Shown here piece by piece: positions 2,160 to 17,345 of a stretch of DNA of 20,580 nt. A model generated the notes under the pieces. It saw only the letters and a program-made list of their open reading frames with translations, searched no databases and was not told the origin of the DNA. The translations under genes were made by a program, and so were the position numbers. Each line of letters opens with the position of its first letter. Within the stretch, counting starts at the first letter, position 1. Source of the stretch: Haloferacaceae archaeon (GTDB taxonomy: Archaea; Halobacteriota; Halobacteria; Halobacteriales; Haloferacaceae). The stretch covers positions 1-20,580 of the forward strand of contig PWFE01000032.1 of the NCBI GenBank assembly GCA_003554115.1, given 5' to 3'.

Positions 2160-2190
2160 ATCTCTATCAACACACACCGTCACTTTGGTC

Positions 2191-2200
2191 TTATGTATTT
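2191..2200 (-). promoter_or_regulatory. TATA-like box for the amylase gene
   Basis: The minus strand reads AAATACATAA here, centred about 36 bp before the ATG at 2159. An archaeal start site about 25 bp downstream would fall near 2170, giving a leader of about 10 nt. Confidence 0.4.
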
Positions 2201-2249
2201 GGAATGTACAATTGATCCGAATGCTAACCATCTATCCGCATTATTAATT

Positions 2250-2261
2250 GTATTTTAATAC
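2250..2261. promoter_or_regulatory. Inverted repeat in the divergent glycosidase promoter region
   Basis: GTATT-TT-AATAC lies between the two divergent glycosidase genes, within 225 bp of AT-rich DNA (2160-2384). It could be an operator shared by both genes. The half-sites are only 5 bp, so chance cannot be excluded. Confidence 0.25.
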
Positions 2262-2320
2262 CACATTTTCACACACGGAGTGACATCGGACCGAAACTGA
2301 TCAGCCAATCATTCATAATA

Positions 2321-2328
2321 TTTTATAA
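2321..2328 (+). promoter_or_regulatory. TATA box for the tandem GH15 gene
   Basis: TTTTATAA is centred about 60 bp before the ATG at 2385. A start site about 25 bp downstream (near 2350) leaves a leader of about 35 nt carrying GGGGAG at 2376-2381. That predicted start site lies after the GTG at 2337, which supports translation from 2385. Confidence 0.5.
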
Positions 2329-2384
2329 CAGATCGAGTGTGTGAGCCGCCAATACTTTGTTGTAGACCACCAATCGGGGAGTAT

Positions 2385-5300
2385 ATGCGACTCCGAACTG
2401 CGTTGAACGAGTACAAACGCGACGGTGCTCGACGCTTCCCTGAGGAGGCCCGAACCACCGACGGCGCGTTTTCGGCCCACGGGGACCGACTGGTCTACGT
2501 CGACCCTGACGGAAGTCTCCGTGATTATTCGTCAGCGCTTTCTGGACTTTACGGCATCGACAGATCGCGGTTGGGCATCGAAACCGCTGAGGGAACACAG
2601 TGGTTCGACGAGTTTTCGACCGTTAGACAGCACTACTACCGCGAAACCAACGTGGTCGAAACCGAGTATGACGCCCACGGCTTTACGGTCCACCAGTACG
2701 ACCTCACGCTCGGTCGCGCCCACCTCACACACGTCGAACTCCGGGGTGCGATCCCAGCGGACGCCGAGCTGACGGCGTTTCTGACGTTCGCCCCCGAGGG
2801 CAGAGAGACACAGGTTGGTCGACTGATCCACGAGAACGTCGGTCCCGATGACACCAAAACCGTCGAGGTGTTCCATCGGTCCGAACACGACTATGTCACT
2901 GCCTCGAACGGGATCACCGACGTCCGGGGTCAGATTCCCGAGCGGTTCGAAGAAATCCTCTCGGAGGATGCCTACGAGTTCCCGCGGGATGCTGTTATCA
3001 ACCGCTTTGAGGACACTCATCTCAGCGGTGATGTCGTTGTCAATGCGCCGCTCGAACAGACCGGTCGAGCGGCCAAAACAACGCTTGTCACCCAGATTTC
3101 GGATCACGACACCCTCAACCGAGCCGAGGCTCTCGCCGACATTCGGCGGTGTGCTGAAGCCCACCGAACAGCCGACGACATCCGAGATGCTGGACGCGAG
3201 CGTGCAGAGGTATCGGTGCCGGCTTCGGCTCCGAACAGCAACGTCGTTCGGGCGGATCTGCGGGCGCTGTCGTTGCTTACTGCCCCGACCGGTGCGCACA
3301 TTGCAGCCCCCGAGTTCGATCCGTTTTACAGCCATTCGGGCGGCTACGGCTACACGTGGTTCCGTGATGAGGCTGAAACCGGCCGAAACCTGCTGGATGC
3401 CGACCGTCTGCTCGATCTCGGTCTCTCCCAACAGATCCAGAAAACGGCCGAGTTTTTCTGTCGAACCCAACAGCCCGACGGCTCGTGGTCACACCGGGCG
3501 TGGGCCGTCGACGGCTCGCTCGCCCCAGGGTGGGCACACAGCCGCCTCGAAGGCGCGGGCAACGACGAGTATCAGGCCGACCAGACCGCCAGCGCAGTCG
3601 CCTTCTTGTCGACGCTGCTGTCGGAACGCGGCGAGAGTCTCGACGACGAGTTGAAGGACTCGATTCGCGAGACCGTCGACGCCGCTGTCGGCGTTCTGGA
3701 CGAAACGCTCGAAGACGACGGGCTGCCCGGGCGTTCGCAGAACCTCTGGGAGAACATGGAAGGTCGGTTTACGCATACGGCCGCCAGCTATCTGCTGGCG
3801 TACGCGACGGTAGCCGATGCGCCATTCGACGACGAACTGACCGCGCATGCCCGCCAGCAGGCCGAGACAGTCGTCGACAGTCTCGATCTGCTTTGGAGCG
3901 AACAACGCGAGTGTTACGGACTGCGATTGAACAAAAGCGGCAAAATCGACAACCGGGTTGATTCGGCGACGTTTGCGATTGTCGAGGCACTCGTTGCCTA
4001 CGACCGCATTGCCGACCTTGAGGAACCGCTCGTCGACCGGCTGGCCGATCACATTCGGAACGTCTTCGAGATGCTGTACCGCAATCCAGACGACACCGAA
4101 GTTGCCGGGCTTGCTCGCTTCGAGGGCGACACCTGGCGGTCGGCCGGTCAGTCCGGCGAGAAAGTCTGGAGCGTCTCGACGGCGTGGGGAGCCAACGCGG
4201 CCGCCGACCTCGGTGTCTTGTTGGAAGCCTACGACCGTGAAAAAGAAGCCGAAGAGTACATCGAGATTGCCGAAACGCTGTACTCGCTGTTGTTGCCCGA
4301 TGGTCCGCTTGCGAGTCACGCAGGCTATCTCGCCGAGCAGGTTTTCGACAACGGTGAACTCGATGGGGCCTCACCACTCGGATGGTCCCACGCCCTGCGG
4401 CTCCGGTCGACTGCCGTCCTGCGTGAACAGAACGCGCTGCCGGTTTCGACGCCAGCACCATCGGGTCCGATGAGCCGACCGCGCTGGACGACCGGCGAAA
4501 AGTACGGCGTTGCCACGGTGGCCGACCACGGCCTTGCGGAGCCCTCGAAAGTATGGTATACGCTCACCGAGGGCGCACTCACTGAGGTTCGGTTCCCGCG
4601 TGTCGACCTGATGAACCTGCGGACAGTCGACTTTATCATCAGCGATACGAACGAGAAGTCGACCTACACGGCTCGAACACACAACGAAACCCGGATCGAC
4701 GACAAAAATGACACCATCGAACGCCGCGTCGAGCCAACCGATGACGACGCGCTGTTGTTCCGCCACGTCATCACTGAACGCGGCGACGGCCGCGGCCACA
4801 GATGGCAACTCACCGTTGAGTATGCGATTGATCCGAACCACGACGCCCTGTTGGCCGATGTCGAGTTTGACGCACGCGACGACAACGAGTACGAACTGTA
4901 TGCGATTGCTGATGTCTCGCTTACCAACACCGGCACCCGTGACCGAGGCTACCGGCTCGGTGAGACCGGCAACTACCATCTGGCTGCCCGCGACTCCGAA
5001 GCATACGACACCGGCTCGGAACCGATTCTGACCGATGAAAACGGCAACACCTACAGCGTCGCCGTCGCGATGACGACAGCGAGTCGGTTCGATTGGGCGA
5101 CTGTCGGTTCGGCCGGCTCAGATCACCTCTCGAAGCTGTTTTCGGAGGGCAAACGACCAACGCCGAACGACAGACTTGACGACGACAACATCGTACTCGC
5201 CGGGCGGATCGGCGAGGGAGATGTACACGAGACGGTTGCGGTCGGCTTCGGTGAGAACGCCGATACGGCTGCCGCACTCGGTGAGGCCGAAGGCGCGCTC

Positions 5301-6920
5301 GCGCGAGGCTACGAGAACGTCAGAAGCGAGTTCGCCGAAACGTGGGTCGACTTTTTGGCAGACAAACCGTTCCCTGATTCGGTCACCGGCGACGACGACC
5401 TGCTTGCACAGTACAAAAGCTGTCTGATGGCACTGCGGGCAGTCGAGGACAAAACGTACATGGGTGCCGGCATCGCAAGCCCCTCGGTGCCGTGGGGCGA
5501 GGCAGTCACCGCCGACGAGCCCAAAGGCTACGGCTACAACTTCGTCTGGTCGCGAGATCTGTATCAGGTCTTTACCGTCTTCGAGGCGGTCGGCGACCTG
5601 AAAACGGCGACCGACGCGCTACAGTACATCTATGAGTACCAACAGGACGACGAGGGCTTCATTCCACAGAACACCTACGTTAACGGCCGAACCCGGTGGG
5701 GCGGCGAGCAGATTGATAACATCTCGTTCCCGCAGGTAATGGCCTACCAGCTGGCCGAAGACGGCGTTGAGTTCGACGACGTCGAGTACGGCTACATCAA
5801 CGTCAAACGCTCGGCGGACTACGTTGCACGCAACGGGCCCGCCACGGCCCAAGAGCGGTGGGAAGAAGAAGCAGGCTACTCGCCGTCGTCGATTGCCGCC
5901 GAGATTGCAGGGCTGGTGTGTGCGGCTGATCTCGCCATCGAGGAGGGCGAGGAGGCCGACGCCCTGCCGTGGCTTGCGCTTGCCGACGAGTGGACCGAGC
6001 GCGTCGAAGAGTGGACGGCCACCGAAACCGGCACCAAGTTGCATACAAACACGCCGTACTACGTCCGAGTCACCCGTGACGGCAACCCCGAGGCGGGCCA
6101 CCTCCGAACGCTTGCGAACGCCGGGCCGACGCTTGATGAGCGCGAAATCATCGACGGCGGCTTTCTCGAACTGACGCGACTGGGGATCAAACCCCACGAC
6201 CACGAGGTAATCGAAAACTCACTGGTCGAAGTCGACGAAACCATTCGGGTTGATACACCCCAAGGGCCCGCGTTCTATCGGTACAACGGCGACGGCTACG
6301 GCGAGCGCGGCGAGGAAGCCGAGGGCGCGCCGTGGTCGGTCGAAACGAAAGGCAAAGGTCGACTCTGGCCCATCTTCACCGGCGAGCGCGGCGAATACGA
6401 GTTGATCGCCGGCACCGATGAGGGCGAACTTGAGCCCCAATCAATGCTGGAGACAATGGCTGGCTTTGCCAACAGTGGCCGGATGATTGCCGAACAGGTC
6501 TGGGATCGCCACATCGAAAACGACTACAACTGGGATATCGGCGAAGGCACCGGCTCGGCTACGCCGCTGGCGTGGAGTATGGCCCAATTCATCCGACTGG
6601 CTCACGGTATCGACGAGGGCCACCCTGTCGAGATGCCCACGGCCGTCGAAAACCGGTATCTCAAAACCGAGCGATCGGCCAAACCCTCGCTCCGGGTCGA
6701 AAGCAAAATCGTCGACGACAGCCTCAAACTCACCGGCGAGACTGACGGCGAACTGCTCGCGGTGAAAGTCGACGACGAGGCGGTTATCGAGACAGTCGAA
6801 GACGGGGAGTTCTCACTGCGGCTGCCGATTACACACGGCGAGGTTCCAGTTACTGTGGCTGCTGCAAGCGACAGCGACCTTCGGGTTGCGGGAACAGCAG
6901 TCGAGCGGTTTACGATCTAA
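2385..6920 (+). CDS. Tandem double-GH15 glucoamylase / glucan 1,4-alpha-glucosidase
   Basis: A 1511-aa protein expected to release glucose from non-reducing ends of alpha-glucans. It has two GH15 (alpha/alpha)6 modules. The N-terminal half has a beta domain (about 1-290) and a barrel from about 310, including GYGYTWFRDE, NLWENMEG with candidate acid E456, and LAEQVFD with candidate base E651. The second half starts near residue 700 with a glucodextranase/bacterial glucoamylase-type beta-sandwich. Its catalytic module has NFVWSRDLYQ, RWGGEQID, QERWEEEAGYSPS (candidate acid E1160) and IAEQVWD (candidate base E1370). A small beta domain closes the protein from about residue 1435. No signal peptide is seen, so it is probably cytoplasmic. 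I chose the ATG at 2385 over the GTG at 2337 because MRLRTALNEY reads as a normal start and the extension is Cys/Pro-rich. Typical bacterial GH15 enzymes are about half this length. It is divergent from the GH13 gene. Confidence 0.9.
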   Translation: MRLRTALNEYKRDGARRFPEEARTTDGAFSAHGDRLVYVDPDGSLRDYSSALSGLYGIDRSRLGIETAEGTQWFDEFSTVRQHYYRETNVVETEYDAHGFTVHQYDLTLGRAHLTHVELRGAIPADAELTAFLTFAPEGRETQVGRLIHENVGPDDTKTVEVFHRSEHDYVTASNGITDVRGQIPERFEEILSEDAYEFPRDAVINRFEDTHLSGDVVVNAPLEQTGRAAKTTLVTQISDHDTLNRAEALADIRRCAEAHRTADDIRDAGRERAEVSVPASAPNSNVVRADLRALSLLTAPTGAHIAAPEFDPFYSHSGGYGYTWFRDEAETGRNLLDADRLLDLGLSQQIQKTAEFFCRTQQPDGSWSHRAWAVDGSLAPGWAHSRLEGAGNDEYQADQTASAVAFLSTLLSERGESLDDELKDSIRETVDAAVGVLDETLEDDGLPGRSQNLWENMEGRFTHTAASYLLAYATVADAPFDDELTAHARQQAETVVDSLDLLWSEQRECYGLRLNKSGKIDNRVDSATFAIVEALVAYDRIADLEEPLVDRLADHIRNVFEMLYRNPDDTEVAGLARFEGDTWRSAGQSGEKVWSVSTAWGANAAADLGVLLEAYDREKEAEEYIEIAETLYSLLLPDGPLASHAGYLAEQVFDNGELDGASPLGWSHALRLRSTAVLREQNALPVSTPAPSGPMSRPRWTTGEKYGVATVADHGLAEPSKVWYTLTEGALTEVRFPRVDLMNLRTVDFIISDTNEKSTYTARTHNETRIDDKNDTIERRVEPTDDDALLFRHVITERGDGRGHRWQLTVEYAIDPNHDALLADVEFDARDDNEYELYAIADVSLTNTGTRDRGYRLGETGNYHLAARDSEAYDTGSEPILTDENGNTYSVAVAMTTASRFDWATVGSAGSDHLSKLFSEGKRPTPNDRLDDDNIVLAGRIGEGDVHETVAVGFGENADTAAALGEAEGALARGYENVRSEFAETWVDFLADKPFPDSVTGDDDLLAQYKSCLMALRAVEDKTYMGAGIASPSVPWGEAVTADEPKGYGYNFVWSRDLYQVFTVFEAVGDLKTATDALQYIYEYQQDDEGFIPQNTYVNGRTRWGGEQIDNISFPQVMAYQLAEDGVEFDDVEYGYINVKRSADYVARNGPATAQERWEEEAGYSPSSIAAEIAGLVCAADLAIEEGEEADALPWLALADEWTERVEEWTATETGTKLHTNTPYYVRVTRDGNPEAGHLRTLANAGPTLDEREIIDGGFLELTRLGIKPHDHEVIENSLVEVDETIRVDTPQGPAFYRYNGDGYGERGEEAEGAPWSVETKGKGRLWPIFTGERGEYELIAGTDEGELEPQSMLETMAGFANSGRMIAEQVWDRHIENDYNWDIGEGTGSATPLAWSMAQFIRLAHGIDEGHPVEMPTAVENRYLKTERSAKPSLRVESKIVDDSLKLTGETDGELLAVKVDDEAVIETVEDGEFSLRLPITHGEVPVTVAAASDSDLRVAGTAVERFTI

Positions 6921-6966
6921 CTTCGCTTGTCGCGCGGTTTTTCCTACTGGCTCTCCTAAAGCGTGT

Positions 6967-7455
6967 ATGTCGACCTACCGACGCCGCAGCAGAATCCGGG
7001 CCCCGCTCGATAAGGTTTGGGCGTTTCATTCGACAATTGATGGCCTCGAAGCACTCACCCCCGACTGGATGGGTTTGAACGTCGAATCCGTCCGCACACC
7101 CGACGGCCACGACAGCGAAACGCTGGTTGAAGGCACCGAAATCACGATGGCCTCGCGGCCTTTCGGAATCGCACCAGAAACGCGCTGGATTTCACGGATC
7201 ACTGATCGCCGGGAAAGTGAGGGCTACTGCATGTTTCGAGACGATATGCTCGGCGGTCCGTTTGGCCTCTGGATTCACACCCACGAGATGTACGGCGACG
7301 GCAATGAAACAGTGCTGATCGATACGGTCGAGTACGAACTCCCCTCGGCAGTCGACCGACTCAACCCGCTGGCTGTGGTTGGGTTCGGACCAATGTTTCG
7401 GTATCGCCATCGGAAAACAAAGGAGTTGCTCGAATCGAGTGCAGGCGAGGAATAA
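6967..7455 (+). CDS. SRPBCC-superfamily (START/polyketide cyclase-like) protein
   Basis: A 162-aa protein with a helix-grip fold pattern: MSTYRRRSRIRAPLDKVWAF at the start, then alternating beta strands (including ETRWISRITD and MLGGPFGLWIHTHEM), ending in a long amphipathic helix (FRYRHRKTKELLE). This superfamily binds hydrophobic ligands in a cavity; ligand and reaction cannot be read from sequence. The ATG at 6967 matches the usual start of such proteins, and the in-frame extension back to 6886 would overlap the glucoamylase gene. It lies 46 bp after that gene and could be read from the same transcript, although a T5 run near 6938 may end it. It converges on mgtE with a 15-bp gap. Confidence 0.75.
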   Translation: MSTYRRRSRIRAPLDKVWAFHSTIDGLEALTPDWMGLNVESVRTPDGHDSETLVEGTEITMASRPFGIAPETRWISRITDRRESEGYCMFRDDMLGGPFGLWIHTHEMYGDGNETVLIDTVEYELPSAVDRLNPLAVVGFGPMFRYRHRKTKELLESSAGEE

Positions 7456-7470
7456 AAAGCCGCGAGCGGC
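7451..7470 (-). terminator. Hairpin plus T-tract terminator of mgtE
   Basis: Directly after the mgtE stop codon the minus strand reads GCCGCTCGCGGC, a 4-5 bp GC stem, followed by TTTTTATT. This looks like an intrinsic terminator. It overlaps the stop codon of the convergent SRPBCC gene, so little separates the two transcripts. Confidence 0.6.
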
Positions 7471-8499
7471 CTACAGCAGGTGGGCGAGGAGGACGGTCGC
7501 CAATCCGAAGTAGATCACGAGCGCGGTCACGTCTTTGACAGTCGTGACGAGTGGGTCGGCAACGGCTGCAGGATCGTAGCCAGCCTTGTTGGCCAGCCAC
7601 GGAATCACATAGCCGACAGTGCTTGCGATCACACAGACTGCCACGAGCGAGACGAAGATGACAAACGCGATGGTGCCTGCATCGGCTGTCTCACCGCGAA
7701 GGCCAGCGATCCACCCGTAGGCTGCCAGTGCGCCAATGCCACCGATTATCAGCCCAATCGTGAGGCCGACTTTCGCTTCGCGGGCGAAATGCCGCATCGC
7801 GTTGCGGTCATCAATGTGGCCAAGAGCCATCCCGCGGACGAAAATCGTCGACGCCTGTGTCCCGACGTTGCCGCCCATATCCATAATAACAGGGATGAAA
7901 AACCCGAGGACGATAACGGCATCAAGCGTTTCTTCGAAGCCTTCGATCACCAATCCAGCGGCCAGTCCACCGGCCAGTGCGACCAACAGCCACGGCAATC
8001 GAAGTTTCAGAATCTTCGACAGCGACGACTCAAGAATGAGTTGGCTCCGGTTTTCCTCGATTTCAGTGAACGAAAAGCCGGCCGATTTCAGAATGTCTTC
8101 GGTTGCTTCGTCTTCGACAACGTCCAACATTGATTCCGACCGAAGCACGCCCACAAGCACACCATCGTCGTCGACAACCGGGATTGCCGAAAAATCAAGC
8201 TCGCTTATCTGCATCGCTGCCTGTTCGACGTCGACACCTGCATTGATCGTAACGAGGTCCGTCTCCATGACGTCGGAGACTTCGATATCCTCAGGTGCGT
8301 TCAGAAGCTCTCGAAGCGACAGCACACCGACTAGCTTGTCGTTCGGATCGGTGACGTACAGGTAGTAAATCGTCGTCTCGTCGTCGGTAGGTGCAAACTC
8401 TCGGAAGCGTTCGACGGCGATCCCAACGAACGTATCGCTCCGAACGCTGACATACTCATCGTCCGTAATCTGTCCAACTGTATCAACGTGTTCTTGCAT
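7471..8499 (-). CDS. mgtE: MgtE-type Mg2+ (divalent cation) transporter, short form
   Basis: A 342-aa inner-membrane channel/transporter. Residues about 12-130 form a tandem CBS pair (SDLV-type repeats around VSVRSDTFVGIAV and SDVMETDLVTI). Five hydrophobic segments follow between about 168 and 342. The family hallmark PVIMDMGGNVGTQASTIFVRG lies at 203-223. The last-helix motif DPLVTTVKDV (315-324) carries D323, aligned by eye with the pore Asp of Thermus MgtE. The protein starts almost directly with the CBS domains: the N-terminal superhelical MgtE_N domain of the roughly 450-aa bacterial proteins is absent. The ATG at 8499 is preceded by a good ribosome binding site (GGGAGG, minus strand of 8505-8510, 5-nt spacing), so the mRNA has a leader. 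The upstream region holds two inverted repeats. Mg2+ is the likely ion; Co2+ or Mn2+ is possible. Confidence 0.92.
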   Translation of the reverse strand: MQEHVDTVGQITDDEYVSVRSDTFVGIAVERFREFAPTDDETTIYYLYVTDPNDKLVGVLSLRELLNAPEDIEVSDVMETDLVTINAGVDVEQAAMQISELDFSAIPVVDDDGVLVGVLRSESMLDVVEDEATEDILKSAGFSFTEIEENRSQLILESSLSKILKLRLPWLLVALAGGLAAGLVIEGFEETLDAVIVLGFFIPVIMDMGGNVGTQASTIFVRGMALGHIDDRNAMRHFAREAKVGLTIGLIIGGIGALAAYGWIAGLRGETADAGTIAFVIFVSLVAVCVIASTVGYVIPWLANKAGYDPAAVADPLVTTVKDVTALVIYFGLATVLLAHLL

Positions 8500-8504
8500 C
8501 GTAT

Positions 8505-8510
8505 CCTCCC
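8505..8510 (-). promoter_or_regulatory. Strong Shine-Dalgarno site of mgtE
   Basis: GGGAGG on the minus strand lies 5 nt before the ATG at 8499. A clear site like this indicates a leadered transcript. It contrasts with the nearby genes, several of which look leaderless. Confidence 0.65.
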
Positions 8511-8599
8511 GTGGGTTCGCCTGTATAGTGGACGTTCAAAAACGCTTCAGCAACAGCCGTAACTGAATCAACAGCTCTCGACAGCTCATCAATGGGTTC

Positions 8600-8619
8600 G
8601 TATGTATTAGAATGCATAC
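8600..8619. promoter_or_regulatory. Inverted repeat upstream of mgtE
   Basis: GTATGTATT-AG-AATGCATAC pairs 8 of 9 positions, plus one T-G wobble, across a 2-nt centre. It is one of two inverted repeats about 100-145 bp before mgtE. It could be a regulator site or, if transcribed, the 5' hairpin of the leader. Confidence 0.4.
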
Positions 8620-8628
8620 GCCGAAAAG

Positions 8629-8642
8629 TTAGACTTGTCTAA
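8629..8642. promoter_or_regulatory. Perfect palindrome, possible DtxR-like operator of mgtE
   Basis: TTAGAC-TT-GTCTAA is a perfect 6-bp inverted repeat with a 2-bp spacer. It overlaps the end of a TATA-like element (GTATTATATT, minus strand of 8641-8650) in the mgtE direction. The TTAG...CTAA ends resemble operators of metal-responsive DtxR/IdeR-family repressors as I recall them. Its place just after the TATA box suits a repressor. No regulator gene is in the window. Confidence 0.4.
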
Positions 8643-8650
8643 TATAATAC
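8641..8650 (-). promoter_or_regulatory. TATA-like box, candidate distal promoter of mgtE
   Basis: The minus strand reads GTATTATATT. A start site about 25 bp downstream would be near 8620, giving mgtE a leader of about 120 nt. Other TATA-like elements lie closer (near 8605 and 8525), so the true start site is uncertain. Confidence 0.35.
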
Positions 8651-8696
8651 TGTCCGTTTGATTATATATTTGTGAATAGATACCATGATGAGGTGC

Positions 8697-8727
8697 AACA
8701 CACACCGTTCTGCGGTGCACGTGTGTT
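8697..8727. other. Imperfect hairpin in the mgtE-pyrophosphatase gap
   Basis: An outer 6-bp stem (AACACA at 8697-8702 with TGTGTT at 8722-8727) encloses an inner 5-bp stem (CACCG and CGGTG, loop TTCTG), with a 4-nt bulge. It lies 34 bp beyond the pyrophosphatase stop codon and could be part of its 3' end. A TTTT run (plus AAAA at 8733-8736) lies between the stop and the hairpin. The gap 8500-8760 otherwise holds only the mgtE control elements. Confidence 0.3.
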
Positions 8728-8760
8728 CGCTAAAAGGGTTGGCGTCGACCGCAGACCGGT

Positions 8761-9678
8761 TCAGCGAAGCGCCGATTCGAGCGGTGGAACAATCTGTTTT
8801 TTGCGTGACATTACACCAGGAAGGAACGATTCGCCATCAGTGAGTTCCGCATCGAGTGCGTCACCGACACGGTCGATCTGCTCGCCGACCACGAACGCTG
8901 TCGAGGCCTCTTCAAGCAGATCAGTCACGACCAAGACCAGAATATCATAGTCGCGTTCGTCGACGATTTCGCCCATCGCCTCGCGGATCGCCTCGCGCTG
9001 ATCAACAACGGGATCGGGATCGACGGTTTCGACCTGGCCGATACCGACGGCCGTTTCGCCAAACTCGAACTCCTTGAAATCGCCCAGTACCATCTCACGG
9101 GGTGTTTTCTCGCCGAGTTTGCTTTTCTGTGCGAGCAGCTCTTTGCCATATGCTTCGATGTCGACGTCCGCGATGTCGGCCAGACGCTCGGCGACGACGC
9201 GATCCCGCTCGGTTGTGGTTGGCGAGCGCAGAATGACCGTATCGCTCACCAGCCCACTGAGCAAGAGGCCCGCCGTCTGGCTGTCAACTTCGACGCCACG
9301 TTCGTCGTACAGATCGGCGATAACCGTCGCCGTCGAGCCGACAGGTTCGATTCGACAGAAAATGGGCTCGCTCGTCGTTACATCCCCGAGGCGGTGATGG
9401 TCGACGATCTCGGTAATTGTGGCTTCGCGCGCGCCATCGACTGTCTGGCTGTGTTCGTTGTGGTCGACGAGAATCAGTTGTTCGTCGGTGGCATCCTCCA
9501 ACAACAGCGGTTCCTCGACATCCCAGTATTCAAGGACGAACTCGGTTTCGGGGTTGAGTTCGCCGGCTCGTGCCGCGACAGTCGAGTCGTCGTCGGTGGC
9601 TTTCAGGCGTGCGTAGGCGAGTGCCGAACAGATCGCATCCGTGTCTGGGCCCCGGTGGCCGATAACGTAGGTCCGCAT
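8761..9678 (-). CDS. ppaC: Manganese-dependent (family II) inorganic pyrophosphatase
   Basis: A 305-aa cytosolic enzyme that hydrolyses pyrophosphate to phosphate and so drives biosynthetic reactions forward. The DHH-family motifs are in order: GHRGPDTD (H8, D12, D14), LVDHNE (D72), IVDHHRLGD (D93, H94, H95) and GLVSDT (D146). The DHHA2 domain follows, with the basic substrate-binding motif SRKKQ near the C-terminus. Length is normal for the family (about 305-310 aa). The ATG at 9678 is chosen because MRTYVIGHRGPDTD places the first motif where it normally sits; the in-frame extension back to 9744 has no family resemblance. GHRGPDTDAICSA differs from the common GHKNPDTDSICSA, so a substrate close to pyrophosphate cannot be fully excluded. 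Confidence 0.92.
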   Translation of the reverse strand: MRTYVIGHRGPDTDAICSALAYARLKATDDDSTVAARAGELNPETEFVLEYWDVEEPLLLEDATDEQLILVDHNEHSQTVDGAREATITEIVDHHRLGDVTTSEPIFCRIEPVGSTATVIADLYDERGVEVDSQTAGLLLSGLVSDTVILRSPTTTERDRVVAERLADIADVDIEAYGKELLAQKSKLGEKTPREMVLGDFKEFEFGETAVGIGQVETVDPDPVVDQREAIREAMGEIVDERDYDILVLVVTDLLEEASTAFVVGEQIDRVGDALDAELTDGESFLPGVMSRKKQIVPPLESALR

Positions 9679-9752
9679 AGCTGACACAGACGGACCCCCG
9701 AAGCAAAGGTGTTTCATTGATTCCGCGGTCGGTCCGTGATTCACACTCAGCG

Positions 9753-9760
9753 TTTTTATA
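9753..9760 (+). promoter_or_regulatory. TATA box of a leaderless promoter (VOC gene)
   Basis: TTTTTATA is centred about 25 bp before the ATG at 9782, the usual geometry for a haloarchaeal leaderless transcript. No Shine-Dalgarno site precedes this ATG. Confidence 0.65.
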
Positions 9761-9781
9761 TGCCGACAGCCAACTCGGCGT

Positions 9782-10186
9782 ATGGATCTCGATATCGTCG
9801 ACCTCGATCATGTCGCCATCCGGGTGACGGATATGACGCGCGCACTCGAATTCTATCACGAGTTGCTCGGCTTGGAAATCCGCGACCGCGAGCGATTCGA
9901 GGCGGGTGAGGTTCCGTACGTCGCGGTTGTCGCTGGCGGTCGACACATTCATTTGGTACCGACCGACGAGCCCGTCGACGTCGTCGGTGAGCACCTCTGT
10001 CTGCTCGTTCGGTCGAACGAACTAGAGACACAAGCCGAACTCGAACAGCTGCTCGACAAACTGCGGGAGGCAGGCGTCACTGTCGAAGACGGCGAACCGT
10101 ACAAACGGTACGGCGCATACGGCCGCGACTGGGCGGCGTACGTCCGTGATCCCGACGGTCGACGCGTTGAACTCAAACTTCACTAA
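9782..10186 (+). CDS. VOC-superfamily (glyoxalase/dioxygenase-fold) protein
   Basis: A 134-aa protein with the paired beta-alpha-beta-beta-beta modules of the vicinal oxygen chelate fold. It begins IVDLDHVAIRVTDMTRALEFYHELLG and ends DWAAYVRDPDGRRVELKLH. Candidate metal ligands are H10 in LDHVAI, H57 in GGRHIHL, H71 in GEHLCLLV and E130 in RRVELK. The complete ligand set suggests a metal-dependent enzyme rather than a binding-only bleomycin-resistance type. Lactoylglutathione lyase, dioxygenase, epimerase and thiol-transferase activities share this signature, so the substrate is unknown. The start is supported by the TATA box. It converges on the histidine kinase with only 5 bp between stop codons. 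Confidence 0.85.
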   Translation: MDLDIVDLDHVAIRVTDMTRALEFYHELLGLEIRDRERFEAGEVPYVAVVAGGRHIHLVPTDEPVDVVGEHLCLLVRSNELETQAELEQLLDKLREAGVTVEDGEPYKRYGAYGRDWAAYVRDPDGRRVELKLH

Positions 10187-10191
10187 GGTGG

Positions 10192-11847
10192 TTACTCGTC
10201 GATAGCGATATCGAACCGCGCGCCGCCCTCGTTGCTATCGGTGGCCTCGATTTCCCAGTCGTGGCCTTCGATCACTGACTGGACGATGGACAACCCCAGA
10301 CCCGTGCCGTTGCCACCAGTGTGGCCGTGCTCGAAAATCTTGTCCTGTTCGTCCGCAGGGATCCCCGGCCCATCGTCGGCGACAGAGACGGTTTGGCCGG
10401 CCAACTCGACGCGTATCCCGACGTCTTCGCCGGCGTGAACAATCGAATTTTTAAACAGGTTCTCGAAGGCCTCTTTCAGCCTCGATTCGTCCGCCTCAAT
10501 GACGGTATCAGACTCAAACCCGACCAACTCAATGGTCGCCTCATACGTTTCGACGCTCTCCCAAGCACCGGTGACGACGGTTTCGAGATCGACTGGCTCC
10601 AGTTCGCCAACCGCTCGTCCTTCACGGGCCAGCGTCAACAGATCGTTCAGCAGCCGCTCCATGCGGTCGGCGGCGTTGACAGCCGGTTCGAGTTGGTCGA
10701 TGTTGCCGGTCTCTAGTACCAGATCTAGATAGCCAGTGATCACGTTTAGTGGGTTCTGCAGGTCGTGGCTGATCACTGATGCGAACTGTTCGAGCTGCTC
10801 GTTTTGGCGTTCGAGTTCCGCCCGCTGTCGACGCCGTCGTTCCATATGACCGATGAGTTCGCCAACCGCCTGCAGCCGCTGTCGGGCCTCTTCAGTCCAC
10901 TCTCGGGGCCGGTCGACGGTGAGAACGATCACCCCCGAGAGCTGCCATTCGATCACAATTGGTAAGGCGAGCAGCGTTCCGCTGTCGACATCCACATCCA
11001 GCGTCCCGTCGCTGAAATCGGTCCACTCGATGGCTTCGTCATGCGTGGGTGGTGCGTGTTCGCCGGGGTCGTGCTGGCCGCCGTCAGTACTCGACCGTTC
11101 GAGACTGTGCACGTCGACACAGACGGAGGCGAACTGCTGGAGTTGGCTGGAAAAGCCCGGAAACCGCTCGCCGTCGATGGTGTCGGTGCCGATTCCGAAC
11201 AGTCGCCGATGGATTTCGGTCTCAGTCACCTCGCTGTCAGTCCAGCCGTGCAGCAACGACAACGTGCTGTTGTCGACGCTGTAGATCAGACACTGGCTGG
11301 CATCGATTTTTGTCGCCAACGACTGGAGTGCCCACTCGGTTTTCATATCGACTTCGTCGTCGGCCGCACCCATCAGTGACCGCGACACGTCGAGTGTGAT
11401 TCCGTCGAGATCGACTGACGGCGTCTCCAAGTCGGCAAGCCGGTCGACCAGCCCGTCAATTCCGTCCATGCCGTCGGCATTTGATCTCTCGGGATCGGTC
11501 GATGCAGCCGTCGACTCCGGGTTCGCGTACTGTTTATAAATGACGTCGGTGACGCCAGCCCGAAACGCCGCACGAATAAAGCCGATATCCTCGGTTGCAG
11601 TAAACAACAGAAACGGCAGTCGCTCGTTTTCGGCCCGGACGTCCTGAAACAGTTCGAGGCTGCCGCTGTCGGGGAGTTGGTCGGACGCAACCACGCACTC
11701 AACGCTGTCGATGGAATCCATCGCCTCGGCAGCAGAGTCTGCGGTCTCGACTACCCAGTCGGGTTCACAGGCCGCCGCAACGTCGGCCTGAAAAACCGGG
11801 TCGGGCTCAACGTAGAGCAGCCGAGATGAATCCCCCCGATAACTCAT
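10192..11847 (-). CDS. Hybrid sensor histidine kinase (REC-GAF-HisKA-HATPase)
   Basis: A 551-aa soluble signalling kinase. Residues about 8-110 form a receiver-like domain: acidic pocket E14/D16, phospho-acceptor candidate D56 (ASDQLPDSG), T84 in LFTATED, and K105 in VIYKQ. A GAF-like sensor domain follows at about 165-335. HisKA carries the H box FASVISHDLQNPLN (H361). The ATPase domain has the N box ENLFKNSIVHAG (N467), the G1 box DDGPGIP (491-497) and the G2 box GGNGTGLGLS (511-520). No transmembrane segment is seen, so it should sense a cytoplasmic signal. I chose the ATG at 11847 because MSYRGDSSRLLYVEPDP starts the receiver domain directly; the in-frame ATG at 11877 adds 10 residues. 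No response regulator or output partner lies next to it. Confidence 0.92.
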   Translation of the reverse strand: MSYRGDSSRLLYVEPDPVFQADVAAACEPDWVVETADSAAEAMDSIDSVECVVASDQLPDSGSLELFQDVRAENERLPFLLFTATEDIGFIRAAFRAGVTDVIYKQYANPESTAASTDPERSNADGMDGIDGLVDRLADLETPSVDLDGITLDVSRSLMGAADDEVDMKTEWALQSLATKIDASQCLIYSVDNSTLSLLHGWTDSEVTETEIHRRLFGIGTDTIDGERFPGFSSQLQQFASVCVDVHSLERSSTDGGQHDPGEHAPPTHDEAIEWTDFSDGTLDVDVDSGTLLALPIVIEWQLSGVIVLTVDRPREWTEEARQRLQAVGELIGHMERRRRQRAELERQNEQLEQFASVISHDLQNPLNVITGYLDLVLETGNIDQLEPAVNAADRMERLLNDLLTLAREGRAVGELEPVDLETVVTGAWESVETYEATIELVGFESDTVIEADESRLKEAFENLFKNSIVHAGEDVGIRVELAGQTVSVADDGPGIPADEQDKIFEHGHTGGNGTGLGLSIVQSVIEGHDWEIEATDSNEGGARFDIAIDE

Positions 11848-11902
11848 AATAACCACTATTCGTGAAGGTTGTATCAACGTTCCTATCTAGTTATCACTAC
11901 TG

Positions 11903-11911
11903 ATTATATAT
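11903..11911 (-). promoter_or_regulatory. TATA-like box for the histidine kinase
   Basis: The minus strand reads ATATATAAT here, about 60 bp before the kinase ATG at 11847. This implies a start site near 11882 and a leader of about 35 nt. Confidence 0.4.
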
Positions 11912-12011
11912 CGGGGGTTCGACCCGGTGAGACTGTCGGAAACAGCTTCAACAGGAGATGTCGACCGACCCGCTGTGTTTATACATCTGATGACATGCTA
12001 GTTGCCGCCGA

Positions 12012-12038
12012 CTGTTGTCGACGCAGAGTCGACGGTAG
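12012..12038. other. GTCGAC inverted repeat between the kinase and the small membrane ORF
   Basis: GTCGAC (12017-12022) and GTCGAC (12028-12033) flank a 5-nt loop. Five further pairs, three of them G-T wobbles on the plus strand, extend the stem. It lies about 30 bp after the stop of the 46-aa ORF. GTCGAC is very common in this genome, so this may be chance. The rest of 11912-12065 shows nothing I can name. Confidence 0.2.
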
Positions 12039-12065
12039 CGCACAGCCACAACCACAGAGTCGAAG

Positions 12066-12206
12066 TTAGCGTACAGACGCGATCGCAGAGATTCCCCTGC
12101 CGGGTGGATTTTCGATCATTCCTTCGGGAGCGACAACGAGCAGGCCGACGACGAGAGCAACCGCAAACGCAACCATGACAAGCATGAGAATGCTGATTTT
12201 GTTCAT
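12066..12206 (-). CDS. Small single-span membrane protein (46 aa), hypothetical
   Basis: A 46-aa protein with a short N-terminus (MNKIS), one strong hydrophobic segment at about residues 6-26 and a short tail (APEGMIENPPGRG). This would give one membrane span, possibly an uncleaved signal anchor. The longer frame reaching back to 12518 is Ser/Pro/Arg-rich antisense reading through the neighbouring gene and should be ignored. A TATA-like element (minus strand of 12281-12290, GGCTTTATAC) implies a leader of about 50 nt from the ATG at 12206. It lies between the RecA/KaiC-like gene and the histidine kinase on the same strand. I do not recognise a family, and its coding status rests mainly on the clean membrane segment. 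Confidence 0.45.
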   Translation of the reverse strand: MNKISILMLVMVAFAVALVVGLLVVAPEGMIENPPGRGISAIASVR

Positions 12207-12280
12207 CGGTTCGGGAGTACAGCACAGTGGCCTGTCCTGATTGCTGATCGGTTCATTACCGTACAGATAGCCTACGAGAA

Positions 12281-12290
12281 GTATAAAGCC
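12281..12290 (-). promoter_or_regulatory. TATA-like box for the 46-aa membrane ORF
   Basis: The minus strand reads GGCTTTATAC, about 80 bp before the ATG at 12206 and just after the stop of the RecA/KaiC-like gene. This gives the small ORF a possible promoter of its own. Confidence 0.3.
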
Positions 12291-12315
12291 TTGTACACGT
12301 GAACACCACGGGTTC

Positions 12316-12948
12316 TCAGGCGATATCGCGACTGGTATCGATAGAGACACCGCTGGCCAGTTTGAGCTTGATTGTCTCGTCCAGTGCACGACCGCCGCGG
12401 AACTTCGGCACCGAAAGACGGTTGACGATTTCAGTTCCCTGGGTTTCGGTGGTGAGTTCGAAAACGACATCGGCCATATGCTCAGTGACATCCCGTAACA
12501 CCGGAACCGAACGCCCATCCATCGCGTGCAGAATGGCTATCGATTCTGTGTTTCGCATCTGCGTCTGTAGCTGGTTCAGAAAGTACCGATACCGGCTCGG
12601 ATCTTGTCGTTCGAGCGGATCCAGCGAGTCGATAATCAGTGTCGACTCCGAGCTGAGCGTCCCCATGAGCTTGTTGGCCTTATCAAGGGGTGCCTCAACA
12701 CCGATATCTCGTATCGTTGGCTCGCCGACGCGCGTATACTGGCTCGTTCGGTCGATGGCGTCCTGGACGGCCTGATCTGCGCGGATCGTCGTCAGATACA
12801 GTGTCATCCGCACCGCCGTCACTTCGTACAGCAGTAGCTCCGACTGACTGGCTGGATCGGCCGAAAACAGGACGATGCTCCCGGTTGGGATGCCACCGTC
12901 GAGCTGTCGATCCAGCACGTCGATCCCAGTCGAGAGACGTCGACTCAT
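12316..12948 (-). CDS. RecA/KaiC/RadA-superfamily protein with a degenerate P-loop
   Basis: A 210-aa protein that begins like archaeal KaiC/RAD55-type ATPases (STGIDVLDRQLDGGIPTGSIVLF). At the Walker A position, where GxxxxGK[ST] is expected, it reads SADPASQSELL (about 29-39), with no Gly-Lys-Thr/Ser. A Walker B-like strand is kept (STLIIDSLDPLE, D107). The fold therefore looks intact, but ordinary ATP binding looks lost. Such haloarchaeal proteins are often annotated as RAD55-family ATPases or regulators; a signalling or scaffold role is my inference. The ATG at 12948 is chosen over the adjacent GTG at 12951. A TATA-like TTTAAT is centred about 27 bp upstream, consistent with a leaderless mRNA. 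Confidence 0.75.
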   Translation of the reverse strand: MSRRLSTGIDVLDRQLDGGIPTGSIVLFSADPASQSELLLYEVTAVRMTLYLTTIRADQAVQDAIDRTSQYTRVGEPTIRDIGVEAPLDKANKLMGTLSSESTLIIDSLDPLERQDPSRYRYFLNQLQTQMRNTESIAILHAMDGRSVPVLRDVTEHMADVVFELTTETQGTEIVNRLSVPKFRGGRALDETIKLKLASGVSIDTSRDIA

Positions 12949-12968
12949 CACGGACAGATGGTGTTGAA

Positions 12969-12980
12969 CTGAATTAAACG
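12969..12980 (-). promoter_or_regulatory. TATA-like box of a leaderless promoter (RecA/KaiC-like gene)
   Basis: The minus strand reads CGTTTAATTCAG, centred about 27 bp before the ATG at 12948. That spacing places the start site at or next to the start codon. Confidence 0.45.
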
Positions 12981-13015
12981 TACCTCCCGAATTATCGAAA
13001 CTGAAATCTTTCGTG

Positions 13016-13025
13016 TAAAAATAAA
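13016..13025 (-). terminator. T-rich tract after the YlbF-family gene
   Basis: The minus strand reads TTTATTTTTA here, about 63 nt after the YlbF stop codon, just past a short palindrome (CCGATATCGG at 13038-13047). U-rich tracts are the usual archaeal termination signal. Confidence 0.35.
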
Positions 13026-13088
13026 GGCCATTTTCGACCGATATCGGCAGCTCGTCCAGCCCCGACGTGCTACCGGTCCAAACGCTGG

Positions 13089-15794: not shown

Positions 15795-16868
15795 TCAGCG
15801 GTTCTCAGCGAGCTTGGCGGCGATCCGCTGGGCCCCTTGTGCGGCTGCGAGATCCGGTCGATCCGCTGCCACAACGGTGACCTCTCGGTCGAGTTCCTCG
15901 GAGAGTCGCTCTTCGAAGACCTCGGCGATACCGGGGATACAGGCCATTCCTCCAGTGAGCGCAATCGGCTTGCCGAGAGCGATCTGATAGGGTTTCATGT
16001 GGGTGTTGGCCAACTCCGAAAGGAAGTTGTTAGCGATCTCGTCGACCGCTTCGTCGACGTACTCGTTGAGTGGCTCCATCACGCTGCGTTTGATGGTGAA
16101 CTCGTGCGAACCGCCGCCGGGCTGTTGGATCACGTCGGTAAAGGGTTCGAAGTCGACGAAGTCGCCGTGTTCTTCTTTGTACTCGCGGGCGGTCGTTAGG
16201 TCGATGTTGACCCGGCCCTGTGTTTCTTCTTCGACCGCATTGGCGATCCGGCGGTCGACCTCGCTGCCAGTGACCGCACCCGTCGAAAAGGGTTCGAGCT
16301 GTTCGGCATGTCGGTAGGCACAGGCTTCGAGATTAGTCGAGCCCATATTGACCGCGATAAACACCTCGTCGATCGCTTGCAGTTCGTCGCCCATTGCGGG
16401 GACAGCCCCACACAGCGATTCGGGGAAGCTCCGGACAAGCTCTGTGCCGATTGGGCTCTCTTCGATGACTTTGGTGAGGTTTTCGAGGCCTTCGTCGTTG
16501 TCGATTGTCGGAATCGCATACACAACGACACTGTCTTGTGGGATGTCCTGTGCTCGGACCAACTCGGTAAAGAACTTCGAGGCCAACGCCGCCCGATCGT
16601 CGTCTTCGGGGAGTCCCGACCGGAGCATGAACTCAACGGTATCAGGGAATTCTTGGGCGGCCTGCTCGCCGTAGAGGACTTTTTCCTCGCCGGTGATGGC
16701 GTCCTCATAGGTTGCCAGACAAGTCAGTGTCCGAACCGTTTCCATCTCGCCGTCCTTCGGGTACTGCAGGACGGTTCGGGTGCTGCCGAGTTTGACACCG
16801 ACAGGGGTTGTTTCGCTTGTTTCGGTCGATCCATCGAACGCGCCGTCGTCTTCAGTTTCGTCTGCCAT
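15795..16868 (-). CDS. Actin/MreB-superfamily filament protein (salactin/volactin type)
   Basis: A 357-aa actin-fold protein, likely a cytoskeletal filament. After an acidic disordered start (1-20) comes the phosphate-1 loop VGVKLGSTRTVL (23-34). The phosphate-2 strand is VFIAVNMGSTNLEA (169-182). An MreB-like subdomain IIA follows (AVTGSEVDRRIANAV, TTAREYKEEHG), and the adenosine motif is IALTGGMACIPGI (302-314). Two positions that are usually Asp in actin-fold ATPases differ: K26 in phosphate-1 and N174 in phosphate-2. Haloarchaea have described actin homologues (salactin in Halobacterium, volactin in Haloferax), and this sequence fits that group from memory. An Hsp70-like or plasmid-segregation ParM-type assignment is less likely. 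It follows the FlaD/E-domain gene by 15 bp, suggesting one operon. The ATG at 16868 is the natural start. Confidence 0.8.
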   Translation of the reverse strand: MADETEDDGAFDGSTETSETTPVGVKLGSTRTVLQYPKDGEMETVRTLTCLATYEDAITGEEKVLYGEQAAQEFPDTVEFMLRSGLPEDDDRAALASKFFTELVRAQDIPQDSVVVYAIPTIDNDEGLENLTKVIEESPIGTELVRSFPESLCGAVPAMGDELQAIDEVFIAVNMGSTNLEACAYRHAEQLEPFSTGAVTGSEVDRRIANAVEEETQGRVNIDLTTAREYKEEHGDFVDFEPFTDVIQQPGGGSHEFTIKRSVMEPLNEYVDEAVDEIANNFLSELANTHMKPYQIALGKPIALTGGMACIPGIAEVFEERLSEELDREVTVVAADRPDLAAAQGAQRIAAKLAENR

Positions 16869-16883
16869 AGTTGGAGAAGTGGG

Positions 16884-17345
16884 TCACGGTAGCGACGCCA
16901 GCGTGGCGACATACAGCAGGCTGAGACGATGGTCACCAGCAGTCAGCGATCGGTCGTGGGTCGGTTCGGGAAACGCCTCGACTCGCCGTTTGAGATCGGC
17001 TTCGGCCGCTGGTGTGATCCATTTGAGCTGTCGGTAGTAGTTGAGTGCGTCCGCGGCTCGCTCGCGTCCACCGACGTGAACGAGGAAATCGAGCCACTCC
17101 TCACAGACGTCGTTACCGACGTCCGAATCCGGGATCGCCGACAGAAACGGCCGCTGTAGCTGCTCAAGCCGTTGGCGTTCCGACTGGAGTGCCAGCAGAT
17201 TCCGAAACTGCTTTTGGCGGATTGACTCGTCCGGTTTGGGTGTCTGTCTCGTCGCCCCGCCGGTCGAACCCTGCTGGTCGACCGACTCCGCACCGGCGAG
17301 CGCTCGGAGCTCCGCCGCATCGTACTCTCGTGGATTTACTGTCAT
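16884..17345 (-). CDS. Orphan FlaD/E (ArlD/E)-domain protein
   Basis: A 153-aa protein. Residues 1-40 are a Gly/Gln-rich flexible start. Residues about 41-66 form a charged helix likely to coil (SIRQKQFRNLLALQSERQRL). Residues about 78-150 match the archaeal archaellum accessory FlaD/E domain by pattern: EEWLDFLVHVGGRERAADALNYY, then LKWITPAAEADLKRRV. In archaella, ArlC/D/E proteins form the cytoplasmic part linking the motor to chemotaxis. No archaellum or che genes are in this window, so this copy is outside the usual cluster. It is the first gene of the apparent operon with the actin homologue (15-bp gap). The ATG at 17345 lacks a clear ribosome binding site. Assignment is by eye and needs a profile search. 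Confidence 0.65.
   Translation of the reverse strand: MTVNPREYDAAELRALAGAESVDQQGSTGGATRQTPKPDESIRQKQFRNLLALQSERQRLEQLQRPFLSAIPDSDVGNDVCEEWLDFLVHVGGRERAADALNYYRQLKWITPAAEADLKRRVEAFPEPTHDRSLTAGDHRLSLLYVATLASLP

Follow-up and report, generated by a model that had tools for sequence, protein, structure and literature searches.

The stretch of DNA analysed here (the window, 20,580 nucleotides of contig PWFE01000032.1 from a Haloferacaceae archaeon) carries two adjacent genes that encode a small FlaD/E-domain protein and the haloarchaeal actin salactin. We tentatively propose that these genes constitute an arlD-salactin operon, in which ArlD would dock or nucleate salactin at the cell pole, a role shared with its place in the archaellum motor. 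Co-transcription of the two genes is very probable given their spacing, and the distribution of the pair makes a shared function of ArlD and salactin likely; direct docking or nucleation as the nature of that function is a proposal which we hold with some reservation. Its basis was observed directly: the family identity of both proteins, their conserved tandem order, the distribution of the pair, and the retention and constraint of FlaD/E after archaellum loss.

The FlaD/E and salactin genes of the window

The two genes and the gap between them are located as follows:

16884..17345, minus strand: FlaD/E gene (ArlD-type protein), 153 amino acids, ATG start, TGA stop
16869..16883, minus strand: intergenic gap, 15 bp from the FlaD/E TGA stop to the salactin start codon, read directly from the sequence
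15795..16868, minus strand: salactin gene, 357 amino acids, ATG start; actin fold; PF25229 and NF053533

A first-pass annotation of the window, made from the sequence alone, had read these genes as an orphan archaellum-accessory (FlaD/E) domain followed, after 15 bp on the same strand, by an actin-fold protein. Both open reading frames (ORFs) and the gap were found on the minus strand as described. The FlaD/E-like domain in the C-terminal part of the first protein was borne out by PF04659 (Arch_fla_DE), whose positions 2-95 (of 96) aligned with residues 64-150 at 3e-19, scoring 69.2 bits where the curated cut-off is 21; no NCBIfam model reached its cut-off for this protein. Its layout comprises a short N-terminal motif (MTVNPREYDAAELR), a low-confidence linker and the C-terminal, all-helical FlaD/E domain. 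The second protein, correctly recognised as an actin, is salactin, since it matched PF25229 over its full length (6.6e-183, 607.7 bits, cut-off 27.1) and the equivalog model NF053533 with 588.8 bits, well above the cut-off of 400, a likeness that it shares with the salactin of Halobacterium salinarum. Its sequence is 96% identical to that of the metagenome-assembled genome (MAG) B1-Br10_E2g22, 92% to that of Halohasta litorea and 91% to that of H. salina, Halohasta-type proteins being its closest named relatives among the best 80 of 131 relatives. The 15-bp gap suggests that arlD and salactin share one transcript.

Conservation of the FlaD/E-salactin pair

The linkage was followed in two sets of loci. 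The named loci were the best 80 of 131 relatives retrieved by scanning species genomes with the salactin alignment, a set in which Halobacterium is not represented. The class survey covered 292 genomes drawn evenly from the class; salactin was above cut-off in 140, whose neighbourhoods were all fetched, two genomes with weak PF25229 matches (G054 and G290; E-values 1.9e-4 and 1.3e-5) having been left out before counting. Among the named loci, a profile of the 153-amino-acid family detected a same-strand upstream FlaD/E for 72 of 81 salactin matches, and for two of the nine unlinked ones (L025 and L076) there is hardly any sequence upstream, or none, which makes their status uncertain. In the class survey, a same-strand FlaD/E ORF lay within 3 kb upstream of 122 of the 149 salactin genes, far above chance, and chance adjacency was rejected. 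Counted by genome, 119 of the 140 had a same-strand FlaD/E within 1.5 kb of salactin, so that the adjacency seen in the window extends across Halobacteria and is not confined to one species.

By genus (same strand, up to 1.5 kb on either side of salactin, best 80 of 131 loci), all named Haloferacaceae genera were linked, for example Halorubrum (15/15) and Halobellus (5/5), and so was Haloarcula (13/13); the figures for Halosimplex and Halovenus were 0/2 and 1/3. The locus of Haloferax mucosum (L012), where a diverged FlaD/E lies downstream of salactin, is linked by this either-side rule and unlinked by the upstream rule. In 158 of 177 pairs, no more than 150 bp separated the stop of FlaD/E from the closest plausible start of salactin, and in 75 no more than 50 bp; these counts pool named and survey loci with some genomes entering twice, and choosing the nearest start makes gaps look small. 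When the neighbouring genes were clustered by blastp (up to 4 kb, alternative-frame shadows removed), the FlaD/E cluster was present in 105 of the 140 neighbourhoods, as against 32 for the second most frequent; an uncleaned count had given 116 of 140 for FlaD/E, mixed with such shadows. FlaD/E is thus the only well conserved salactin neighbour, and the other flanking genes vary. On a FastTree phylogeny of 251 salactin sequences, which includes duplicates between the two sets, the linkage state changes at least 15 times, and no FlaD/E-salactin fusion ORF was present in the fetched loci.

This pairing contrasts with the poor synteny of salactin, even within Halobacterium, described in the salactin paper (PMC10746226). 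The main text of that paper, figures and supplements excluded, contains no mention of archaell-, flagell-, anchor, operon or FlaD, and no archaellum gene is mentioned there, whereas in the window arlD lies directly upstream.

The association also holds at the level of gene content. Of the class-survey genomes, 230 have FlaD/E, and 140 of these carried salactin; none of the 62 others did (Fisher 1.6e-21). Salactin was likewise present in 137 of 227 genomes with ArlH as against 3 of 65 lacking it. Volactin (PF25216), the dynamic haloarchaeal actin of Haloferax volcanii, served as a control: although likewise an actin of this group, its presence does not track FlaD/E (135/230 with and 39/62 without, p 0.56), so that within the class the co-occurrence is specific to salactin. 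That none of the 62 genomes lacking FlaD/E has salactin argues against a purely general DNA-segregation role for salactin within the class.

Assignment of the FlaD/E protein to the ArlD type

In a FastTree phylogeny of 209 distinct FlaD/E domains, 25 ArlCE and 6 arl-embedded domains fell behind one branch (support 0.93). The window protein lay outside this branch, beside its Halohasta relatives, and only a single salactin-linked protein (that of L155) grouped with ArlCE. Seven short ArlDs encoded in arl operons, directly upstream of arlCE, were also outside the ArlCE group and adjoined 19 salactin-linked proteins (0.90); five of these seven genomes have salactin elsewhere and two (G008 and G017) have none. 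By a strict pattern, the N-terminal motif was present in all 7 of these short arl-operon ArlDs, in 157 of 191 salactin-linked ORFs and in 12 of 29 other ORFs, and in none of the 35 ORFs of the ArlCE class. The window's 153-amino-acid protein carries this ArlD motif, is short, and has the FlaD/E domain without a fused ArlC part.

The inventory of FlaD/E genes points in the same direction. The arl cluster of Halohasta litorea comprises archaellins, cheY, cheC, cheD, one large FlaD/E ORF, arlG, arlH, arlI and arlJ; a short FlaD/E is missing from it, and the genome's one remaining FlaD/E match is that linked to salactin. Exactly two FlaD/E matches were found in 112 of the 140 salactin genomes, three in 21, four in 3 and one in 4. 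In Haloferax larsenii (L221), H. elongans (L140) and further Haloferax-type loci the gene order is cheY-cheC-cheD-arlD-salactin.

On the evidence of the domain tree, the N-terminal motif and the FlaD/E inventory of genomes, then, the salactin-linked FlaD/E protein is of the ArlD type, and the 'orphan' label given to it in the first-pass annotation has to be dropped. The gene type tied to salactin is accordingly the one that serves the motor. With ArlD/FlaD of Haloferax volcanii and Halobacterium salinarum the window protein has in common the FlaD/E domain and a position outside the ArlCE group, and it shares the N-terminal motif (NPREYD..ELR) with the short arl-operon ArlDs; it differs in being encoded with salactin and not with arlCE. 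Since its nearest tree rows are Halohasta-type, and neither the H. volcanii nor the H. salinarum protein was itself compared with it by name, its orthology to a named ArlD is one that we infer.

Haloferax-type genomes have an additional, diverged, free-standing FlaD/E about 2.5-4 kb downstream of salactin (L221, 8541-9119; L212, 238-690; L220, 6510-6956).

Salactin genomes without ArlH

Three salactin-bearing genomes of the class survey had no ArlH, namely G280 (Halocatena marina by nucleotide match), G186 (Halocatena-like) and G292 (Haloplanus-like), which probably represent two losses of the archaellum. Neither G186 nor G280 had an archaellin match or an ArlJ-like match at an E-value of 0.001; G292 retains a single archaellin match, interrupted by two internal stops, and its ArlJ-like proteins are only distant (best 1.5e-12, 23% identity). 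Each of the three genomes has exactly one FlaD/E, located beside salactin. The same arrangement, a single FlaD/E next to salactin, was found in Halocatena pleomorpha, H. marina and the MAG QS_5_70_17, in which no ArlH was detected at 1e-30, the MAG being possibly incomplete.

The ratio of nonsynonymous to synonymous divergence (dN/dS) of the Halocatena FlaD/E region was 0.18 and 0.13 in two of three pairs and saturated in the third, rough values because synonymous divergence is high in these pairs; pairs involving the MAG gave 0.22-0.39. The values for comparison were 0.44 and 0.50 in close archaellate pairs; pairing G292 with its Haloplanus relatives gave 0.43 and 0.46. These ratios indicate that the Halocatena FlaD/E is constrained. 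Since the FlaD/E neighbour of salactin has survived the loss of the archaellum, the function of the pair probably extends past the motor, and these genomes argue for a job of FlaD/E with salactin that would be independent of the archaellum.

CheA was tried as a marker of lost motility and discarded as a poor one: it was above cut-off in 3 of 8 genomes and failed in G115 and G255, which have ArlH; G280 has one CheA match below cut-off. The Halocatena-type FlaD/E proteins (L075, 4807-5763; L078, 4586-5758; L151, 2202-3101) are longer, their N-terminal part being extended and acidic; they have a conserved HGFVWS segment, and the N-terminal motif apparently occurs in them twice. G186 carries several salactin copies (L151, L200, L237, L238), one of them matched only in two pieces; only a single copy is linked to FlaD/E.

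Possible roles of the pair

Salactin of H. salinarum is described as forming dynamically unstable filaments that grow from the cell poles (PMC10746226), and ArlD-GFP, an established polar-motor marker, as forming polar foci in H. volcanii, for which an arlD deletion also exists (PMC11588486). According to a review, ArlC and ArlDE may contact a polar cap, a structure made of protein at the pole that bears the archaella (PMC8978795). On our proposal, ArlD, a small collar/switch protein of the archaellum motor, would have a second job in docking or nucleating salactin filaments at the pole, and the filaments would grow inward from the ArlD-marked site; the polar cap would be another possible docking site.

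Bacterial actins are known to be encoded with an adaptor, as in ParM-ParR and MamK-MamJ. The arlD-salactin pair resembles these systems in that an actin filament gene stands in tandem with that of a small potential anchor partner; it differs from them in that the FlaD/E family is common to a rotary motor and that the salactin pair is known here without a cargo. We know of no relationship between FlaD/E and ParR or MamJ. Nor, to our knowledge, has a factor that holds salactin at the pole been identified, and the conserved arlD-salactin unit is a concrete candidate for such an anchor. Through it, a protein of the archaellum motor becomes connected with an actin, a connection that we did not encounter in the literature searched: neither a report of an arlD-salactin pairing nor, in the portions of text covered, a passage linking salactin with archaellum terms was found there, bioRxiv and most subscription journals lying outside the search, so that the pairing may have been noticed earlier.

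Several observations weigh against a docking role of ArlD. Deletion of salactin left H. salinarum as motile as its parent in soft agar according to the salactin paper, and this normal swimming counts against a role in motility (PMC10746226). In the class survey, 90 genomes have FlaD/E and no salactin, hence ArlD does not need salactin, and the Fisher tests on which the co-occurrence was judged ignore the relatedness of the genomes. Linkage is missing in 21 of the 140 salactin genomes; in 8 of these (G023, G028, G040, G072, G099, G130, G238 and G249) the short FlaD/E adjoins the large one, in G164 and G278 a FlaD/E lies about 5 kb from salactin, and in G168 (L113) and G115 (L192) it adjoins salactin on the opposite strand, with 122 and 17 bp between the open frames. 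A search of the phylum (392 genomes) detected salactin in 60, of which 21 were not in the class sample and were taken to lie outside the class; in the 20 examined (G504 was left out), no salactin neighbourhood was linked to FlaD/E, and 7 of these genomes had no FlaD/E at all. Salactin is therefore older than the pairing, which accords with its distribution as published (PMC10746226), and so its older role is independent of ArlD.

The arl operon itself supplies evidence on both sides. Two salactin genes are embedded in it in both SHR40 (L067, L145) and G120 (L131):

L067 (SHR40) 3377-13038 and L131 (G120) 372-9554: arl-embedded loci, salactins between arlG and arlH/arlI

The order there is cheY-cheC-cheD-FlaD/E-arlG-salactin-FlaD/E-arlH-salactin-FlaD/E, each salactin being followed by a FlaD/E ORF. 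Salactin genes in this position favour our proposal; the FlaD/E proteins beside them group with ArlCE and not with ArlD, which counts against it.

Structure prediction did not settle the matter. The two proteins were modelled as one chain with AlphaFold by reading through the FlaD/E TGA, using 74 aligned rows, of which 17 were tandem ones (window included). The tethered model reached a mean predicted local distance difference test (pLDDT) score of 85.3 and a predicted template modelling (pTM) score of 0.67, with no inter-domain error measure and no mismatched control. Since the salactin fold alone makes up about 65% of the chain, this pTM is close to the value estimated for two unrelated domains; no confident interface was predicted, which also tells against docking, and on balance the model speaks neither for nor against an ArlD-salactin interface. 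Modelled alone, ArlD gave a pTM of 0.59, with a confident helical domain (block-mean pLDDT 88-96 over residues 71-150) and an N-terminus that was not confident. A Foldseek search of this model against the PDB returned no match at an E-value of 0.001 or better, and sequence profiles against the PDB gave none for FlaD/E at E-values up to 1 and none for salactin at 0.001.

The absence of a confident interface is compatible with an explanation by shared regulation only, in which salactin is part of a motility or pole regulon and shares a transcript with arlD for reasons of timing or dosage, without the proteins touching; salactin might then have a part in positioning or segregating motors, chemosensory arrays or chromosomes at the pole. 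The cheD-arlD-salactin order of the Haloferax-type loci fits this explanation. So do two findings that also favour our proposal: the location of salactin genes within the arl operons of L067 and L131, and a 2026 report on H. volcanii in which ArlD/HVO_1202 is named as one transcriptional unit that goes up with other archaellum units when csmR is mutated (PMC13286277). Judging from synteny, HVO_1202 should encode salactin. Most linked pairs, however, lie away from che and arl genes in the fetched flanks (176 'SAL' FlaD/E matches against 38 with CHE and/or ARL, named and survey loci being pooled and some ORFs counted twice), and co-regulation with motility does not by itself explain why FlaD/E persists beside salactin in the absence of an archaellum. 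We regard shared regulation alone as somewhat unlikely.

The first-pass annotation had suggested that the FlaD/E protein may be an adaptor for the actin, an idea that gains weight from the Halocatena and Haloplanus-like genomes that keep FlaD/E beside salactin without an archaellum. A stricter form of it, a dedicated adaptor that serves salactin only and no longer the archaellum, finds support in these genomes too, and the further diverged free-standing FlaD/E of Haloferax-type genomes could serve the motor in its place. Against the dedicated adaptor, Halohasta litorea has no FlaD/E other than the salactin-linked gene and that of the arl cluster, most salactin genomes have exactly two FlaD/E matches, and the arl-operon ArlDs group with salactin-linked proteins and not apart from them; moreover, full motility has required FlaD where this was tested, a ΔflaD mutant of H. 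salinarum being reported as hardly motile (PMC2666748). An exclusive adaptor is improbable. Of the earlier interpretation, the FlaD/E match, the identification of an actin and the occurrence of the pair well outside a single species stand, and the orphan character of the FlaD/E protein does not.

A frozen gene order without functional meaning, left from an ancestral che-arl-salactin cluster whose rearrangement is still pending, would account for the cheD-arlD-salactin order that Haloferax-type loci still show, and is very improbable in view of the turnover of the other neighbours, the lack of any salactin without FlaD/E among the 292 class genomes and the retention of FlaD/E after archaellum loss.

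A wider form of the docking proposal is conceivable, if unlikely when taken as a whole: salactin would be seeded on ArlD-containing polar structures, whether motor collar or polar cap, and would couple the motor, the chemosensory pole and chromosome partition, the ArlD-salactin unit persisting by itself, as a polar filament system, where the archaellum has been lost.

Other genes of the window

About 2.8 kb from salactin, the window encodes a DUF7125 KaiC-like protein (12316-12951, minus strand), which has a weak ArlH match (38 bits against a cut-off of 215) and is not ArlH. On the same strand as the pair, about 70 bp downstream of salactin, lies a carboxylesterase-like ORF (PF02230; 15047-15724, minus strand).
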